Below, piece after piece: positions 3,623 to 37,808 of a stretch of 64,000 nt of DNA. A program made the position numbers and the translations under genes. The stretch spans positions 1,736,001 through 1,800,000 of the forward strand of contig NZ_LN868938.1 in assembly GCF_001182745.1 (NCBI RefSeq), in the 5' to 3' direction. The number at the start of each line of letters is the position of its first letter. The stretch's first letter is position 1. This stretch comes from Nocardia farcinica. Its GTDB lineage: Bacteria; Actinomycetota; Actinomycetes; Mycobacteriales; Mycobacteriaceae. The notes beneath the pieces were generated by a model. The model did not search any database. It was not told the DNA's origin and saw only the letters and a program-made list of their open reading frames with translations.

Positions 3623-5434
3623 ATGCAACCGCTCGGCTTGGACGATCCGCGACGGATCGGCGACTACCGGCTTCTCGGCGTCCTCGGGGCGGGCGGCATG
3701 GGGCGGGTGTACCTGGGGCGCAGCGCGGGCGGCCGCACCGTCGCGGTGAAGGTGATCCGGCCCGATCTGGTCGCCGACCCGGAGTTCCGCACCCGCTTCC
3801 AGCGCGAGGTGGCCGCCGCCCGGCGCGTCGGCAGCTCGTGCACCGCGCCGGTGCTCGACGCCGACGTGGCCGCGAACCCGCCGTGGCTGGCCACCGGTTA
3901 CGTCGCCGGGCTCGCGCTGTCGGATGCGGTGGAGCGGTTCGGTCCGCTCGGTGAGCACAGCCTGCTCGTGCTCGCCCACGGCTTGGCCGAGGCCCTGATC
4001 GCGGTGCACGCGGCGGGGGTGGTGCACCGCGACCTCAAGCCCTCCAACGTGCTGCTGGCCCTCGACGGGCCGAAGGTGATCGATTTCGGCATCGCCCGCG
4101 CCATGGACGACACCTCCCTCACCACGACCGGCAAGGTCATCGGTTCCCCGGCGTTCATGAGTCCGGAGCAGGTGACCGGCGAACCGATCGGGCCCGCGGG
4201 CGACATGTTCGCCCTCGGCGGCGTGCTGGCCTACGCCGCCGCAGGCCAAGGGCCGTTCGGCACCGGCGACACGGTGCAGTTGCTGTGGCGCGTCGTCTAC
4301 GAGGAACCGCGGATCGAGGCGGTGCCGCCGCGGCTGCGGCCGGTGGTGGCCGCCTGCCTGGCCAAGAACCCGGCCGACCGGCCCACCCCGCGGCAGGTGC
4401 TCGACCAGCTCACCGCGCTCGGCCTGCCCGACCGCGCGGGCTGGCTGCCCGCGCCGGTGCTCGAGGACGTCAGCGCCCGTGCCGTGCGGCTGCTCGATCT
4501 CGACTCCGAACCCGACGACGGCTACGGCGAACCCACCCGAGCGGCCGCCATCCCGTCCGGCCACGGCACCGCGCCTTCGCATCCCGGCACCGCCCGCTTC
4601 CCGCAGGACGACCCCTACCGGCAGTCGTCGGGCGGGTACGGCACCGCGGCGGGGCAGGGCACCGGAGCGCAGCCCGAGTCCGGTCGCTACGGCACCACCC
4701 CGACCGGGTGGCACACCCACACCGCACACTCCGGCTCCGACCGCTCGGTGGACCGGAATCACTCTGTCCCCCAGGGCTATTCGGCGCACTCTCCACACGG
4801 CCGGCAACACGGGTCCGGCGCGGGCCGCACCGACGCGACAGCCCTGCACCGCCCGTCGACCGCGCACGAGCCGTCCACCCGCCGGTCCGGCCGGCGCGGG
4901 CCGCTGGTGGCGGCCCTGGTCGTCGTCGGAACGGCCGTCGCCGCGGGCGCTTTCGTGATCGGTACGCAGTTGCGGGACCAGCCCCCGCACGAGAACGCGG
5001 GCGCCCCGCCGAGCGCACAGGTCGCCGAACCGACCGAGGCCGCGCCGACGACCACGGCGGCCACCTCGACGACCACCGCCCCCGAATCCGCGGTACCCGC
5101 CGAGTTCGTCGGCACCTGGCGCGGCACGGCGGCCGACGGCCTGGTGGCCTTCGACATCGAACTCGTCATCGACGAGGGCGAGGTCGGCGCGGAGGTGGCC
5201 CGCTCGGCCAACACCGGCAAACTCATCGGACAGCGGTGCAGCCGCGTCGAACGGCTCACCGAGGCGAATCCGCAGCAGCTCACCTTCGTCGCGCGGCTGG
5301 CCGACGACAGCCCGCGCGACTGCCGCGACGAGGGCGCGGTCACCACCGTGCGCCTGCAACCGGACGGCTCCCTCGCCTACAGCACCCCGGGACTGTTCGG
5401 CGGTTCGATCGCGGGGATCCTGCGCCGCGGCTGA
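3623..5434 (+). CDS. membrane serine/threonine protein kinase with C-terminal ectodomain
   Basis: 603 aa Hanks-type kinase. Seen in order: glycine loop GAGGMGRVY (22-30), catalytic-site Lys in AVKV (43), HRDLKPSN (135-142), DFG (154-156), SPEQ activation-loop end (~180), then a long Ser/Gly/His/Thr-rich low-complexity linker (~290-420). One transmembrane helix lies near 426-450, followed by a Thr-rich stalk and a ~110-residue external domain (FVGTWRGTAADGLVAFDIEL..., with two Cys). This is PknB-like topology, but the sensor is not PASTA. The single globular ectodomain probably senses an envelope or extracellular signal (inference). ATG 3623 precedes RIGDYRLLG, the usual kinase start. Confidence 0.93.
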   Translation: MQPLGLDDPRRIGDYRLLGVLGAGGMGRVYLGRSAGGRTVAVKVIRPDLVADPEFRTRFQREVAAARRVGSSCTAPVLDADVAANPPWLATGYVAGLALSDAVERFGPLGEHSLLVLAHGLAEALIAVHAAGVVHRDLKPSNVLLALDGPKVIDFGIARAMDDTSLTTTGKVIGSPAFMSPEQVTGEPIGPAGDMFALGGVLAYAAAGQGPFGTGDTVQLLWRVVYEEPRIEAVPPRLRPVVAACLAKNPADRPTPRQVLDQLTALGLPDRAGWLPAPVLEDVSARAVRLLDLDSEPDDGYGEPTRAAAIPSGHGTAPSHPGTARFPQDDPYRQSSGGYGTAAGQGTGAQPESGRYGTTPTGWHTHTAHSGSDRSVDRNHSVPQGYSAHSPHGRQHGSGAGRTDATALHRPSTAHEPSTRRSGRRGPLVAALVVVGTAVAAGAFVIGTQLRDQPPHENAGAPPSAQVAEPTEAAPTTTAATSTTTAPESAVPAEFVGTWRGTAADGLVAFDIELVIDEGEVGAEVARSANTGKLIGQRCSRVERLTEANPQQLTFVARLADDSPRDCRDEGAVTTVRLQPDGSLAYSTPGLFGGSIAGILRRG

Positions 5435-5449
5435 CCGGGTTAGGCTGTA

Positions 5450-5498
5450 TCCCAGCCCGCTCGACGTCCCAGCCCGCTCGACATCCCAGCCGCTCGAC
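5450..5498. repeat. three tandem copies of a 17-bp unit upstream of the DUF5995 gene
   Basis: Unit tcccagcccgctcgacg, copies starting at 5450, 5467 and 5484. Copy 2 differs at the last base and copy 3 has lost one C. The array lies between the kinase stop (5434) and the ATG at 5551, so it occupies the likely promoter or 5' leader of the secreted DUF5995 gene. It may be a slippage-prone repeat or a set of binding sites on one DNA face; nothing in the sequence decides between these. Confidence 0.85.
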
Positions 5499-5550
5499 CG
5501 CGTCACCGCCCGATCGCCGATCACTCGCCGACCCGAAAGCGCAGCGACCC

Positions 5551-6462
5551 ATGAGCCTTCGCCCCGCGCGGCCGTTCCTGCCCCTCGCCGTCCTCGCGGC
5601 ACTGCTGTGCAGCGCGCTCACCCTGCTCGTCCCCGCGCGCGCAGCCGCCGTCGCCGACACCGCCTGCGGTGCGCCGCTCGCGCCCGCGACCGTGGCCGAG
5701 ATCGCCGACCTCGCCGACACCACCGAGGTCGCCGACCCGGCCACCGGCAGCTCCCTCGACCGGCTCGAGCGCGCGGTGGAGCGGCACCGGCGCATCACCG
5801 AGATCCTCGTCGAGCACCGCGACCGCCGCGGCCTGCTCGCGCTCGGCCTGGACACCGTCGAACAGACCGCGGTGATGCCGCTGCAGCGCACGCCCGCCGC
5901 CTTCGACGACCCGGAGTGGGCGCACCGCATCAGCCTCGACCTGCTGCTGCGCTTCCTGCGGAACCTGCACGCCGAGTTCACCGGCGGGCCGACCGAACCC
6001 CAATGGACGCACTATTTCGCGCTCACCCGCCGCTGCGAACTCTCCGCGGCCCGGGTCGCGATGGCCGGCTACAACGCCCACCTCAGCGTCGACCTCGCCA
6101 ACGCCGTCGCCGCCACCCGCGCCACCCCGGCCGATGCCCGCGACTACTTCACCATCGTCGACGCGATCGCCAGTCACGGCTTCCTGATCGTGGACGCGAC
6201 GAAGGCGATCTACGGCGGCGACCTGGGTCCGCTGTGGCGGTTCTACTTCGTCGGGGAGGGCTTGGACGCCGTGCTCGGCGCGGGCGTGGCGACCGGGCCA
6301 CTGCTGCGGCTGGCCGACGCGGGCGCCAACGTGGTGATCTTCGGCAACGGTCTGGCACTCCAGGATCCGGCGCTCGAACCCGCGGTGCGCGCCGAGATCG
6401 ACGTGCTGTGGCGCAGCGCGGACGCCGCCTTCGAGGTGCTGGCCGCCGTCGGCGGCCTGTGA
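5551..6462 (+). CDS. secreted DUF5995 family protein
   Basis: 303 aa with a classical signal peptide (RPARPFLPLAVLAALLCSALTLLV, cleavage likely after PARAAA near residue 32). The mature part has the pattern I associate with DUF5995: WxHxISLDLLLRFLRNLH...WxHYFALTRRCE, then MAGYNAHLSVDLANAV, i.e. a mostly helical domain with conserved His/Asn/Asp that look like metal or active-site residues. Function is unknown. ATG 5551 is chosen because it opens the signal peptide; the frame is open far upstream but only through the kinase gene. Confidence 0.75.
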   Translation: MSLRPARPFLPLAVLAALLCSALTLLVPARAAAVADTACGAPLAPATVAEIADLADTTEVADPATGSSLDRLERAVERHRRITEILVEHRDRRGLLALGLDTVEQTAVMPLQRTPAAFDDPEWAHRISLDLLLRFLRNLHAEFTGGPTEPQWTHYFALTRRCELSAARVAMAGYNAHLSVDLANAVAATRATPADARDYFTIVDAIASHGFLIVDATKAIYGGDLGPLWRFYFVGEGLDAVLGAGVATGPLLRLADAGANVVIFGNGLALQDPALEPAVRAEIDVLWRSADAAFEVLAAVGGL

Positions 6463-32924: not shown

Positions 32925-34088
32925 TCAGTGCGCGCTCACGCCGCTCAATTCGTTCGGGCTGTCGGGCAAGGTGACCGAGGCCGCCACGGTGCCCGCGGCC
33001 AGATCGATCCGGTGCACCTGCTTGGTCGCCGGATCGCTGACGTAGACGTCACCGCCCCGCACGAACAGCGCCGGGCGCGGCTGCTGCCACTTCAGCGGTT
33101 CCTGCCACGGCGCGAGCACGTCGATGCGACGCACCACAGTGCCCGCCACCGGGTCGATGACGTGCAGGCGGCCGTCGGTGCCGAGCACCAGCGCCTCGCC
33201 CTGCGGGCCGCGGCCGAGGGAGCGGAAGGTGTAGCTGGCGCCCAGATCCACCAGGCGCAGCGAGCCGGTGGTGGTGTCGATCAGCGAGACCTGCTGCGGG
33301 CGCTCCAGTTCGGCGTCCTTGTCCTGCTTGTAATCGCCGAGCACGATGGCCGATTCGGGGCTACCGGCCTGGTTGCCGATGCGACCGTAGGGGGTCGGGC
33401 TGGTGATCTTGGTGATGACGCCGTCGCGGTAGACGAGCACACCGTTCTCGCAGCCGACGACGACGGTCTCGTCCTCGGCGGCGGCCTCGCCGTGCACGCC
33501 GGGGCAGTCCTCGTTGCGGGTGATCTCGGTGCGCCGCTCGTCCAGCACGGCCAGACCGGTGCGCTTCTCCTCGGTGCCGAGGGTGACGACCAGCTTCCCG
33601 TCCGCCAGTTCCACCGCGACACCGTGGTGCGGCTGCGGGGTCTTGTAGACCTCGGTGGGCGGCGCGCCCGCGGCGAGGTCGGCCGGGTCGAAGGAGACCA
33701 CCTCGCCGGTGCCGTCGGTGAACAGCACGGTGCGCCCGGCGTGGCGCACGACGTGCCCGGGCTCCGGGCCGGGGAAGGAGATGTCGGTGAATTCGGCGGC
33801 GGTCGCGTCGTAGACCCGGAACCCTTCGGACGTGGAGACCATCAGGTGCCGCTCGTCACCGGCCGGGTTGAGCCGGTTGAAGCCGTCGAGCCGGGTGGTG
33901 CCGCCCAGTTCCAGCGTGCGGCCGTCGAGGACGTGGATGCCGCCGTCGAAGGTGACCGCGATCGGCTCGGCGATCGCGCGGTCCTGGGCGTCGGCGTCGT
34001 CGCCGGACCCGCAGGCGGTCAGCGTGACCGCGGCGGTCAGCAGACCGGCCAGCGCGGTCGCGGTCCGCGCGGTGGATCGAATGTGCAT
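32925..34088 (-). CDS. aztD: zinc metallochaperone AztD-like beta-propeller lipoprotein
   Basis: 387 aa. Lipoprotein signal TARTATALAGLLTAAVTLTACGSGDDADAQ (lipobox LTAC) and a seven-bladed-propeller-like repeat pattern. AztD-type blocks include KTPQPHHGVAVELADGKLVVTLG and RNEDCPGVHGEAAAEDETVVVGCENGVLVY. AztD hands zinc to the substrate-binding protein AztC. Start ATG 34088 has GGGAGC; an ATG 11 codons upstream has none. Last gene of the aztBCD operon, 29 bp after aztC. Confidence 0.83.
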   Translation of the reverse strand: MHIRSTARTATALAGLLTAAVTLTACGSGDDADAQDRAIAEPIAVTFDGGIHVLDGRTLELGGTTRLDGFNRLNPAGDERHLMVSTSEGFRVYDATAAEFTDISFPGPEPGHVVRHAGRTVLFTDGTGEVVSFDPADLAAGAPPTEVYKTPQPHHGVAVELADGKLVVTLGTEEKRTGLAVLDERRTEITRNEDCPGVHGEAAAEDETVVVGCENGVLVYRDGVITKITSPTPYGRIGNQAGSPESAIVLGDYKQDKDAELERPQQVSLIDTTTGSLRLVDLGASYTFRSLGRGPQGEALVLGTDGRLHVIDPVAGTVVRRIDVLAPWQEPLKWQQPRPALFVRGGDVYVSDPATKQVHRIDLAAGTVAASVTLPDSPNELSGVSAH

Positions 34089-34117
34089 GTGGTGCTCCCT
34101 TTTCCGATGTACTGCGT

Positions 34118-35029
34118 TCACGGAGCGGCCAGCCCGGCCACGATGGCCTCGGTGTTGGACCGCATCATCTCCAGGTAGGTGGCCGCGCCGCCGCCGGGTG
34201 GGCTCAGCGATTCCGAGTGCAGGCCGATCACCCGCACGTGCAGTCCGGCTTGTTCGGCGAGGACGCGGGCGAGCCGGTCGGGCTGGGCGGTGTCGGCGAA
34301 GACCGCCCCGACACCCGCCGCGCGCACCGCGCCGGCGAGCTCGGCCAGATCCGCGGGGCTGGGCGAGGCGAGCGTGGTGCCGCCGGGGATCACCGCGCCG
34401 ATCACCTCGAAACCGAAACGCTGGGCCAGGTAGCCGAAGACGTGGTGGTTGGTGACCAGCTTGCGGCGCTCGGGCGGCACGGTGGCGAAACGTTCGGTCA
34501 TCCAGCGGTCCAGCTCGTCGAGCTCGCGTAGGTAGTTCTCGGTCCGCGCCCGCACGATGTCCGGGTCGGCGTCGGTGTGTTCGAGCACCGCGTCGCGCAG
34601 CGCTTCGACAGCGCGGGCCACCCGGCGCGGGTCGGTCCAGAAGTGCGGGTCGGGACGATCGGCACCGACCTCGGGCCGGAAGCGCAGCGGATCGACCCGC
34701 TCCCCCACCGCCAGCGTCGGCACACCCGCCTCGGCGGCGGCGGTGACGTGGCGGGCCACGCCCTCCTCCAGGCCGAGGCCGTTGTGCACGATCAGGCTCG
34801 CCCGCTCGAGCACGGCCGCCTGCTGGGCGGAGACGGCGAAATGGTGCGGGTCCGCGCCGGGCGACATCAGCACGGTCACCTCGGCGGCGTCGCCCACCAC
34901 GGCGGCGGTGAGGTCGCCGAGGATGTTCGTGGTCACCACGACGCCCTCGCCGCGGCCACCGCCGTCGGCACAGCCCGCGGCCAGCACGAGCGCGGTGACC
35001 AGGACCAGCAGTCGCAGGATCGTTCTCAT
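34118..35029 (-). CDS. aztC: zinc ABC transporter substrate-binding protein AztC
   Basis: 303 aa cluster A-I metal-binding lipoprotein: lipobox LAAGC, VVVTTNILGDLTAAVVGDAAEVTVLMSPGADPHHF (first His ligand), DPHFWTDPRR (second), NHHVFGYLAQRFGFEV (third), VFADTAQPD (acidic ligand). No long His-rich loop, in line with the AztC type that relies on AztD. ATG overlaps the aztB stop by 4 bp. Confidence 0.9.
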   Translation of the reverse strand: MRTILRLLVLVTALVLAAGCADGGGRGEGVVVTTNILGDLTAAVVGDAAEVTVLMSPGADPHHFAVSAQQAAVLERASLIVHNGLGLEEGVARHVTAAAEAGVPTLAVGERVDPLRFRPEVGADRPDPHFWTDPRRVARAVEALRDAVLEHTDADPDIVRARTENYLRELDELDRWMTERFATVPPERRKLVTNHHVFGYLAQRFGFEVIGAVIPGGTTLASPSPADLAELAGAVRAAGVGAVFADTAQPDRLARVLAEQAGLHVRVIGLHSESLSPPGGGAATYLEMMRSNTEAIVAGLAAP

Positions 35030-37008
35030 TCGCCGGTCTCCACCATCAGCGCGGGGGCGATGTCGAGCGGGAAGGTCCGCGCGACCCGCAGATCCGCGTA
35101 GTCGATCTCGAACACCCGCCTGCCCGCCGGGTCGTTGACATAGGCGCGGGCGCTGTCGACGGTCACGGTCGGGGCCGCGGCCGGATCCACCGTCGCCAGC
35201 AGCTGCGTGCCGGCGAGTTCGACACCGGTGACCGGGTCGTGGGCGTGCAGCATCCCGTCGGCGGTGAGGGTGAGCAACGGGGCGCCCTCCCCCGCGGTGT
35301 TCGCCGCGAGCACCGGCCCGGCCGGGACGAGCGTCCAGGTCCGCGCCCGCACGTCGAGCAGCCAGGCGCCGCGATCACCGGCCCGCGCCGCCAGCGTCGC
35401 GCTGCCCGGACGGTGTCGGAACTCGGTCGCGCGCTCGGTGGCGGGCACCGGGTGCGGGTAGGCGATCGGAGTGCCGGCGAAGGCGGTGCCGTCCGCGTAC
35501 ACGACCAGCGCGCCGTCCGCGCAGCCGAACACCACACCGCGGCGGGTCGAGGCGCTGCCGCGCGGTTCCGGGCAGGGCTGCGGCAGCGACGCGACGGGGG
35601 CACCGTCCCTGGTGCGCACCTCCACCCGGCCGTCGGGGCGGGCGATCACCAGATGTTCGGCGTAGGGCACGGCCGTTCCGGCGATCGGCTCGCCGAGCGC
35701 GCGCACCGAACCGTCGTCCAGCGCGCCACGATCCAGCAGCACGGTCTCGGCGCCGGTGTGCACGGCCGCCACGGCGCGGTCGGCGAGCACCGTGACGTCA
35801 CCGGCGACCGGCCGGGTGCCCACTTCGCGGATCGGCGCACGGTAGTAGTGGGTGTGGTCGCCGTGGTCGACCAGCCAGCTGCCGGTGTCCACGATCCGCA
35901 GCGCGGCGCCGTCGGAGAGGTAGGCGTGCCTGCCGTCGGCGGCGATGCCGCGCACGCCCGGCACCGCGGGCAGCTCGGTGACCTGCTCGCTCACCAGGTC
36001 GAGGACCCGCACGGCGCCGGACCCGCTGTCGGCCAGTACCAGCCGCGGCTGCGGTTCGGCCGTCTCCTCCGCGCCCGCGATGTATCCGTGCGGCGTCGGC
36101 TCCGGTTGCGCCGGTTCGGGATTCGCGGCGCAACCGGTCAGCACCGCGGCCACGGCCACGGTGGCGGCGGCCGCGCGGGCCCGGCGCCCGCGCCACCACG
36201 AGCGGGCGGCGGAGGCGGCCGCGGACAGGAAGAACAGCGCCACCGCCACGACCGCGATCGTCGCGCCCGCCGCGGTGCCCGCATGCCAGGAGATGAGCAG
36301 TCCCGCCACCGTCGCGCTCGCGCCGAGCAGCGCGGCCAGCGCCATGATCACCGGAATGCGGTGCGCCCACAGCGTCGCCGCCGCGGGCGGCGCGATGAGC
36401 AGCCCGAAGACCAGCAGGGTGCCGACCACGTGGAAGGAGGCCACGATCGCGAGCGTGATCAGGCCGAGCATGGCCGCCTGCGCCAGGCGCGGTCGCAGGC
36501 CGAGGGTGTGGGCCAGGCGCGGATCGAAGGCCAGCGCCACGAACGCGCGGTGGCCGAGTGCGGCCACGATCCCGGCGAGCAGCAGGGCCGTCGCGAGGAA
36601 GGCCAGGTCGCGGTCACGGATCGCCAGCACGTCACCGAACAGGAAGCCGGTGAGGTCGACGGCGAACGACTGCGCCCGCGAGATGATCACCACGCCGATC
36701 GCCAGCATGCCCACGAAGAGCAGGCCGATGCCGATGTCGGCGGAGAATCGCGGCGAGCGGGTCAGGGCGGAGACGCCGAGCGCCATCGCCGCGGCGCTGA
36801 CGGCGGCGCCCAGTACCAGGTTTCCGCCCAGCAGCGCGGCCACGGCGATGCCGGGCAGCATGCCGTGCGCCATGGCGTCGCTCAGAAATGCCATGCCGCG
36901 CACCACGACCCACGTTCCGGCGATCGCGCACAGGCAGCTGACCAGCAGCCCGCCCCACAACGCCCGGTGGACGAAGGACACCTCGAACGGGGCGAGCAAC
37001 CATTCCAT
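35026..37008 (-). CDS. aztB: zinc ABC transporter permease AztB fused to an AztD-like beta-propeller
   Basis: 660 aa, more than twice a normal AztB/ZnuB (~280). Residues 1-270 are an ABC-3 permease (FVHRALWGGLLVSCLCAIAGTWVVVRGMAFLSDAMAHGMLPG; SFHVVGTLLVFGLLIAPPAAATLWA). Then comes WWRGRRARAAAATVAVAAVLTGC, which has the basic, hydrophobic and lipobox parts of a lipoprotein signal (Cys293). From ~315 to the end there is a propeller with DHGDHTHYYRAP (His 382-387), resembling AztD. The frame is continuous. ATG 37008 is chosen; the 19-residue extension would run into the Zur-like box. Confidence 0.85.
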   Translation of the reverse strand: MEWLLAPFEVSFVHRALWGGLLVSCLCAIAGTWVVVRGMAFLSDAMAHGMLPGIAVAALLGGNLVLGAAVSAAAMALGVSALTRSPRFSADIGIGLLFVGMLAIGVVIISRAQSFAVDLTGFLFGDVLAIRDRDLAFLATALLLAGIVAALGHRAFVALAFDPRLAHTLGLRPRLAQAAMLGLITLAIVASFHVVGTLLVFGLLIAPPAAATLWAHRIPVIMALAALLGASATVAGLLISWHAGTAAGATIAVVAVALFFLSAAASAARSWWRGRRARAAAATVAVAAVLTGCAANPEPAQPEPTPHGYIAGAEETAEPQPRLVLADSGSGAVRVLDLVSEQVTELPAVPGVRGIAADGRHAYLSDGAALRIVDTGSWLVDHGDHTHYYRAPIREVGTRPVAGDVTVLADRAVAAVHTGAETVLLDRGALDDGSVRALGEPIAGTAVPYAEHLVIARPDGRVEVRTRDGAPVASLPQPCPEPRGSASTRRGVVFGCADGALVVYADGTAFAGTPIAYPHPVPATERATEFRHRPGSATLAARAGDRGAWLLDVRARTWTLVPAGPVLAANTAGEGAPLLTLTADGMLHAHDPVTGVELAGTQLLATVDPAAAPTVTVDSARAYVNDPAGRRVFEIDYADLRVARTFPLDIAPALMVETGE

Positions 37009-37025
37009 GGCGAGACACCATAAGA

Positions 37026-37040
37026 TGAAAACGATTATCA
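37026..37040. promoter_or_regulatory. Zur-like operator between divergent aztA and aztBCD
   Basis: tgaaaacgattatca is a 7-1-7 near-palindrome close to the actinobacterial Zur/FurB consensus (TGAAAATCATTTTCA type). It sits 17 bp upstream of aztB and 27 bp upstream of aztA, so one site could repress both arms when zinc is plentiful. Confidence 0.8.
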
Positions 37041-37067: not shown

Positions 37068-37808
37068 ATGGCGGCGGGACTGCGGATCCACGGCTTGACC
37101 GCGGGCTATCGGGGGCGGATCGCCCTGCACGACCTCACCGCCGATCTGCCCGGCGGCGCCGTCACCGCCGTGCTCGGACCCAACGGTTCGGGCAAATCGA
37201 CGCTGCTCGCCGCGGTCGCGGGAGTGCTGCGCCCCGCGGCGGGACGGGTCGAGCGCGGCCCCGGCACGCGGCTGGCGTTCGTGGTCCAGCACAGCGCCGT
37301 GCCCGCCACGCTGCCCATCACCGTCGCGGAGACGGTGGCGATGGGCCGCTGGTCGCATCGCGGTCCGTGGCGGCGGCTCACCCGCGCCGACACCGCGATC
37401 GTCGACGCCTGCCTGGACCGGCTGCACCTCACCGAGCTGGCCGGGCGCCGCCTCGACACCCTCTCCGGCGGCCAGCGCCAGCGCACCCTGCTCGCCCAGG
37501 CGATGGCCCAGCGGGCCGACATCCTGCTGCTCGACGAACCCACCGTCGGCCTCGACGCGCACTCGCGCCGGATCATCGCCGACCTGCTCGTCGAACTGGC
37601 CGCCGACGGCGCGACGATCGTGCAGGCAACCCACCATCCCGACGAGGTACTGGCAGCGACCCACTGCCTGCTGCTCGAGGCGGGACACCTGCGCGCCCAG
37701 GGTGATCCCGCGTCGATACTCGGCGGCCCCGCGGCGCAACTCTTTGGTCACGAGGGCGTGTCGTTCGACCGAAACGCCTTGGCGCGGCAATCGATCGGCT
37801 TACGCTGA
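37068..37808 (+). CDS. aztA: zinc ABC transporter ATP-binding protein AztA
   Basis: 246 aa ABC ATPase: Walker A GPNGSGKST, Q-loop VVQHS, signature LSGGQRQR, Walker B ILLLDEP, H-loop QATHHPDE. HHPDEVLAATHCLLLEAGHLRAQGDP is typical of metal-uptake ATPases. Divergent from aztBCD across a 59-bp region with the Zur-like box. ATG 37068. Confidence 0.9.
   Translation: MAAGLRIHGLTAGYRGRIALHDLTADLPGGAVTAVLGPNGSGKSTLLAAVAGVLRPAAGRVERGPGTRLAFVVQHSAVPATLPITVAETVAMGRWSHRGPWRRLTRADTAIVDACLDRLHLTELAGRRLDTLSGGQRQRTLLAQAMAQRADILLLDEPTVGLDAHSRRIIADLLVELAADGATIVQATHHPDEVLAATHCLLLEAGHLRAQGDPASILGGPAAQLFGHEGVSFDRNALARQSIGLR

Follow-up and report, generated by a model that had tools for sequence, protein, structure and literature searches.

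A permease–propeller fusion with a predicted internal lipoprotein signal in the AztABCD zinc transport locus of Nocardia farcinica

The window considered here is a stretch of 64,000 nucleotides from Nocardia farcinica (contig NZ_LN868938.1), and all positions are counted from its first letter. Its minus strand holds a single open frame of 660 codons (37008 to 35026) that starts as a zinc transporter permease and ends as a propeller resembling AztD, and a separate aztD gene lies downstream in the same operon. The locus raises the question of whether the fused gene yields one protein or two, and of what a second propeller does in an operon that already encodes an AztD. The propeller half of the fusion is referred to as D'. 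The presence of aztABCD in N. farcinica has already been noted (available part of PMC5387054); the open-licence literature yielded no description of the fusion, of a second AztD or of an internal lipobox.

The operon and its fused gene

The aztA gene, encoding the ATPase of the zinc ABC transporter, occupies 37068..37808 on the plus strand, divergent from aztB, and its product scores 265.9 bits against NF040873 (AztA, cut-off 220). The fusion gene aztB-D' (35026..37008, minus strand) is followed on the same strand by aztC (34118..35029), which encodes the zinc-binding lipoprotein (NF040870, 389.6 bits, cut-off 350) and whose start overlaps the stop of the fusion by 4 nt (ATGA). The separate aztD (32925..34121, minus strand) comes next; its product, a lipoprotein propeller, reaches 499.5 bits against NF038015 (cut-off 400), in agreement with the first-pass annotation. 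The GTG of aztD at 34121 overlaps the aztC stop, and an ATG at 34088 behind AAAGGGAG looks the better start.

The continuity of the 660-codon frame, also proposed in that annotation, was confirmed, and three parts can be told apart within it. The permease part consists of residues 1-262 (36223..37008, minus strand), of which residues 2-255 match the AztB profile NF040871 at 371.2 bits (cut-off 280), which settles the proposed permease identity. AztA, AztB, AztC and the separate AztD thus each score above their own NCBIfam cut-off. In a Foldseek search the permease part, a low-confidence region of the model, matches the PsaBC chains of 7kyp (best E 3.1e-11). Residues 269-293 (36130..36204, minus strand) form a putative internal lipoprotein signal with a basic n-region, a hydrophobic run and the residues LTGC, ending at the predicted lipidation and signal peptidase II site Cys293 (36130..36132, minus strand). 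The predicted mature lipoprotein, D', extends from Cys293 to residue 660 (35029..36132, minus strand) and has the β-propeller fold of AztD; its likeness to AztD at the sequence level is weak, with residues 326-656 scoring 51.4 bits against the 400-bit cut-off of NF038015. In the whole genome there are only two AztD-type matches, both inside this operon. The locus is an AztABCD system in a new arrangement, in which the permease scores as AztB and D' scores below the AztD cut-off.

The aztA-aztB intergenic region contains a Zur-box-like palindrome, TGAAAACGATTATCA (plus-strand letters, 37026..37040), which fits the central part of the actinobacterial Zur motif as quoted in the available text of PMC5472717. 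A relaxed Zur pattern (up to 2 mismatches) occurs in 71 of 79 aztA-aztB regions of relatives versus 2 of 395 control stretches, and the strict pattern in 23 of the 79. The locus is best explained as a split version of the Zur-type zinc importer AztABCD.

Occurrence and history of the fusion

A survey of Nocardia genomes, which the first-pass annotation had suggested, found the fusion to be common. An unbroken, near-full-length match without stops is present in 72 of 148 genomes of the genus (that of the window included), and both halves lie within one longer open frame (700-1,099 codons) in 16 others. The remaining 60 comprise two genomes with the halves in separate frames (G010, G046), five in which the match is partial or split across contigs or frames (G031, G044, G059, G117, G130) and 53 without a listed near match. 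The nearest database cluster (P0003), named from N. farcinica, has 49 member sequences and a 660-aa representative that is 99 per cent identical. Permease core, anchor and HxDHxH motif occur in one chain in all 120 database relatives, these being the best listed of 782 and biased towards the query. In two Nocardia loci (L069, L071) the linker is long, with 86 and 100 residues separating the permease match from the Cys, and the signal at its end is normal.

Among the best 80 of 168 named loci found with the D' half, a set with the same bias, 41 are fused, and in the other 39 aztB is followed by a free-standing D' gene. The gene order aztA / aztB-D'-aztC-aztD is recurrent among these 80; AztB was found in all of them (tblastn without composition statistics), and aztA was not found in one (L045). 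Fused forms among the named loci come from Nocardia, Lentzea, Saccharothrix, Prauserella shujinwangii and Amycolatopsis suaedae. A second genus of Nocardia's family adds five fused genomes (L147, L172-L175) and two separate ones (L176, L184), and one fused genome (L177) belongs to another family. The system is patchy: when the sampling was widened, D' or AztD-type matches turned up in 71 of 298 genomes from the order and in 23 of 396 from the phylum. One genome (G404, L185/L211) has a D'-AztD pair with no aztB within the first stretch, and a wider stretch contains only distant permease, ATPase and binding-protein matches near the pair. Where standalone D' proteins of Streptomyces (L099 and relatives P0123-P0242) carry a name, it is mostly 'hypothetical protein' or 'lipoprotein'.

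At 23 of the 39 separate loci the aztB stop and a D' start codon share 4 nt, so that a small indel is enough to fuse the two genes; in this analysis the script did not assign the Cys of L036, L045 and L074. Trees were calculated from permease and D' with the linker omitted (FastTree, 144 rows; IQ-TREE, 65 rows). Both require six changes between fused and separate states, of which at least four are forced by starred branches; in these trees, with their uncertain root, gain and loss are indistinguishable. Three fusions may each rest on a single assembly (A. suaedae L087, L177, and P. shujinwangii L079, which is identical to L114), and without them three changes are needed, not six. Several genomes each stand behind the fusion in the Nocardia-Lentzea-Saccharothrix group and in the second genus of the family. 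The loci include near-copies (71 distinct sequences among 81 fused), so sequence counts are not counts of independent events.

Division of the zinc sites between two propellers

In AztD of Paracoccus denitrificans (PdAztD), according to the available text of PMC6689063, zinc site 1 lies in the pore (His124, His167, His218) and site 2 on an extension (His99, His102, Asp104, His408), and the ligands are at least 95 per cent conserved except His408 (68.1 per cent). The same text reports that zinc passes to AztC from site 2, the removal of which nearly abolishes transfer while removal of site 1 does not, and its authors ask what the conserved site 1 does. In the joint alignment D' of N. farcinica has the motif HGDHTH (residues 382-387, 35848..35865, minus strand) at the place of PdAztD His99-Asp104, with His replacing Asp104, and has Thr406, Ala443 and Arg483 at the site-1 positions. 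The last residues of D' contain no His that would be an evident counterpart of His408. The separate AztD of N. farcinica has site 1 (His123, His166 and His210, long-form numbering) and lacks the site-2 segment.

This division recurs in the relatives. All 148 close D' sequences have His at positions 99, 102 and 104, Gly100 varying in a minority, and in the AztD of D' loci the site-2 segment is absent in 85 of 85, with the three site-1 His present in 85, 85 and 84 of them. The sample was extended by 20 loci and by 20 more picked for an AztD-type gene (19 of these without D' beside it), and duplicates were removed by identity of the last 250 letters. Site 2 is then filled in all 153 D', of which 149 have no site-1 His, three have one and one has all three. 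AztD beside D' has site 2 in 0 of 108 cases and a full site 1 in 105; of the other three, two are cut by the end of the stretch and one has Asp. Of the AztD without an adjoining D' in the fetched stretch, all 22 have site 2 and 21 a full site 1, the last being broken by a frame split; two of these (L193, L201) are misaligned at site 2 and were scored by motif. Both sites are also present in seven distant single AztD and in two crystal structures. The contrast of 0 of 108 with 22 of 22 gives p 2e-25 in Fisher's test, relatedness being ignored. One AztD beside D' (L171:823-2091) has HGDHFH away from the place of site 2 and was counted as lacking it.

In a propeller tree of 85 rows, with the site columns removed, the site state has to change three times. 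Two groups, one with site 2 only and one with site 1 only, are surrounded by rows that have both sites, and the sole site-2 row inside the site-1 group is the frame-split L163; several branches are long and the deeper order is unsure. In one locus (L186:2604-3845 and 4850-6106) a D' with both sites stands beside an AztD with site 1 only, and is likely, by its sequence, an intermediate of the split. In genome G374 a fused D' system with a site-1-only AztD (L175) coexists with an AztD elsewhere that has both sites and no D' beside it (L210). Since site 2 is missing from AztD in this sample only where D' adjoins, the pattern can be read as duplication with division of labour, D' apparently keeping site 2 and the neighbouring AztD site 1, and the two propellers look complementary and not redundant. 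Because D' falls below the AztD cut-off and lacks site 1, it is filed as an AztD paralogue and not as AztD; as far as alignment can tell, it is a deep one with site 2 only. Of the 'AztD-like propeller' in the first-pass annotation, the relationship and the fold thus stand, and membership of AztD itself does not.

A further question concerns the fourth ligand of site 2. No equivalent of the C-terminal His408 is evident in D', and Asp104 is replaced by His; both points count against the reading favoured below. A conserved N-terminal His, His307, was considered as the missing ligand; it is kept in 81 of 81 near rows but absent in more distant fused loci such as L172 and L175, and stays a guess. 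AztC also departs from the P. denitrificans protein, which needs a His-rich loop for zinc transfer from AztD. The N. farcinica AztC (34118-35029, minus strand) lacks a His-rich flexible loop, and among 81 rows this loop has no His in 62 and one His in 19. This loop, mostly without His, speaks against a simple analogy, and the docking of AztC must differ from that in P. denitrificans.

The internal signal and the fate of the fused protein

The basic patch, hydrophobic run and LTGC described in the first-pass annotation are well conserved. All 81 fused loci (71 distinct) have the Cys with G, A or S at -1, and 76 have a strict lipobox. Among the database relatives the Cys is present in 119 of 119 anchored fused proteins (strict lipobox in 115), and the 120th has LVGC. 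The separate D' genes have the Cys in 84 of 84 and a strict lipobox in 55; where several Cys fell within 60 residues, the script chose the one preceded by the most hydrophobic run. From 264 to 305, an alignment of 45 fused proteins has a single invariant column, Cys293. The profile around the Cys in the 119 proteins resembles a type II signal, Arg-rich between -28 and -17 and then a run of A, L and V, with L at -3 in 103 and G at -1 in 110. The net charge of the n-region is positive in 120 of 120 fused proteins, and the polar-free run before the Cys has a median length of 16 versus 18 in 120 standalone D' obtained with a Streptomyces query. The fusion therefore has the n-region, h-region and lipobox Cys of a lipoprotein, placed internally at residues 269-293 and not at the N-terminus. 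Generally known definitions were applied for a lipoprotein, for the lipobox and Shine-Dalgarno patterns and for hydropathy. Above cut-off the host genome has one match to LspA and two to Lgt.

These features suggest a polyprotein, and this is the reading that we consider probable. The gene would have arisen by merging of aztB and the next gene, D', into one frame, from which the ribosome would make a single chain whose permease helices insert into the membrane. The basic tail behind the last permease helix would stay inside and act as the n-region of the internal signal, and the next ~16 hydrophobic residues would carry the propeller outward, a topology that we infer. Lgt would then lipidate Cys293 and signal peptidase II would cut before it, so that a free permease and a lipid-anchored propeller would result in a 1:1 ratio. 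Co-translation with AztB would also put donor and channel on the same membrane patch. All fused forms examined have kept the signal intact, which a cut product predicts and an uncut tether does not require; this retention could in part be inheritance from a separate lipoprotein. The open-licence literature yielded no example from nature of signal peptidase II cleaving within a polytopic protein. In a Streptomyces Rieske protein, a signal peptidase I site introduced after an internal helix released a reporter from the polytopic protein (available text of PMC5449189).

In the same reading D', with site 2, would hand zinc to AztC for import through AztB, and its partner lipoprotein AztD, with site 1, would bind or buffer zinc as a store or loader. 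By analogy with donation from site 2 in P. denitrificans, D' is likely the donor and AztD the store or loader. For a broader proposal the balance is even. In it, such fusions would constitute a naturally occurring family of transporter polyproteins that arose more than once and are cleaved by signal peptidase II within a polytopic membrane protein, and the two zinc sites of a metallochaperone would have been parted between a permease-borne donor (site 2) and a lipid-anchored acceptor or store (site 1) that form an obligatory pair.

Several other explanations were weighed against the polyprotein. The fusion might stay uncut, its hydrophobic run serving as an extra helix that tethers the propeller to the permease, with Cys293 perhaps still lipidated. 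An AlphaFold model does draw a helix at 279-291, with low confidence, and ABC importers such as OpuA and GlnPQ carry fused extracytoplasmic domains; however, the run is as short as the signals of standalone D', and conservation extends beyond hydrophobicity to the entire lipobox, of which an uncut anchor would not need the Cys. We consider this outcome unlikely. Of the two options offered in the first-pass annotation, the evidence thus appears to favour signal peptidase II cleavage over a plain extra helix. Permease and normal lipoprotein could also come from one gene by an internal translation start, and 39 of 41 fused loci do have a GTG, ATG or TTG within the linker or immediately ahead of it, but the places of these codons vary and only 1 of the 41 has a Shine-Dalgarno-like match, a weak one (GGAG). 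An internal start was rejected as the main route on this count and is highly improbable. As for an assembly or sequencing artefact joining two genes near 36130, which had been raised at the outset, it is conceivable for the three single-assembly fusions (L087, L177, L079), whereas nothing at the N. farcinica locus speaks for it; a stop or frameshift at the junction occurs in none of the 72 unbroken genomes, and with these and the 49 members of cluster P0003 an artefact has a negligible probability and was rejected for the genus.

The remaining alternative concerns the function of D' and not its release. As a site-2 propeller it might have another job, such as docking AztC on the permease or sensing zinc, and donate nothing; the absence of any site-1 His from nearly all D' (149 of 153) and the AztC without a His loop would suit this. 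Against it, all 153 D' have counterparts of His99, His102 and, as His, of residue 104, and the one site with a known role as donor to AztC is missing from the adjoining AztD. Another job for D' is a rather doubtful prospect, and donation is preferred.

Whether signal peptidase II can cut within a polytopic protein is directly testable on the internal lipobox, which has persisted through repeated fusion. As native single-site forms seem to have evolved as separate genes in one operon, the task of each zinc site is testable, and the unexplained role of site 1 can be approached with native proteins. The standalone D' of Streptomyces, mostly filed as hypothetical or lipoprotein, would gain a proposed function as a likely zinc-uptake protein.

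The closest known system is AztABCD of P. denitrificans, which likewise has AztA, AztB, AztC and an AztD, a Zur-type box and the AztD fold. It differs in having one propeller, whereas here there are two with one zinc site each, one of them fused to the permease, and an AztC loop that has no His in most rows (62 of 81). Compared with the AztD structures 6ck1 and 6cmk, D' lacks the site-1 His, has Asp104 replaced by His and no evident counterpart of the C-terminal His ligand, scores 51 bits where the cut-off is 400, and has a predicted membrane-borne precursor. The fbcH product of the Bradyrhizobium cytochrome bc1 complex also joins a polytopic protein and an exported domain in one chain that is divided at an internal signal. 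There the enzyme is signal peptidase I and no lipid is attached, whereas a type II signal is predicted here. Finally, in a known zinc ABC importer a zinc chaperone-type domain is fused to the binding protein, while in N. farcinica the corresponding fusion is to the permease.
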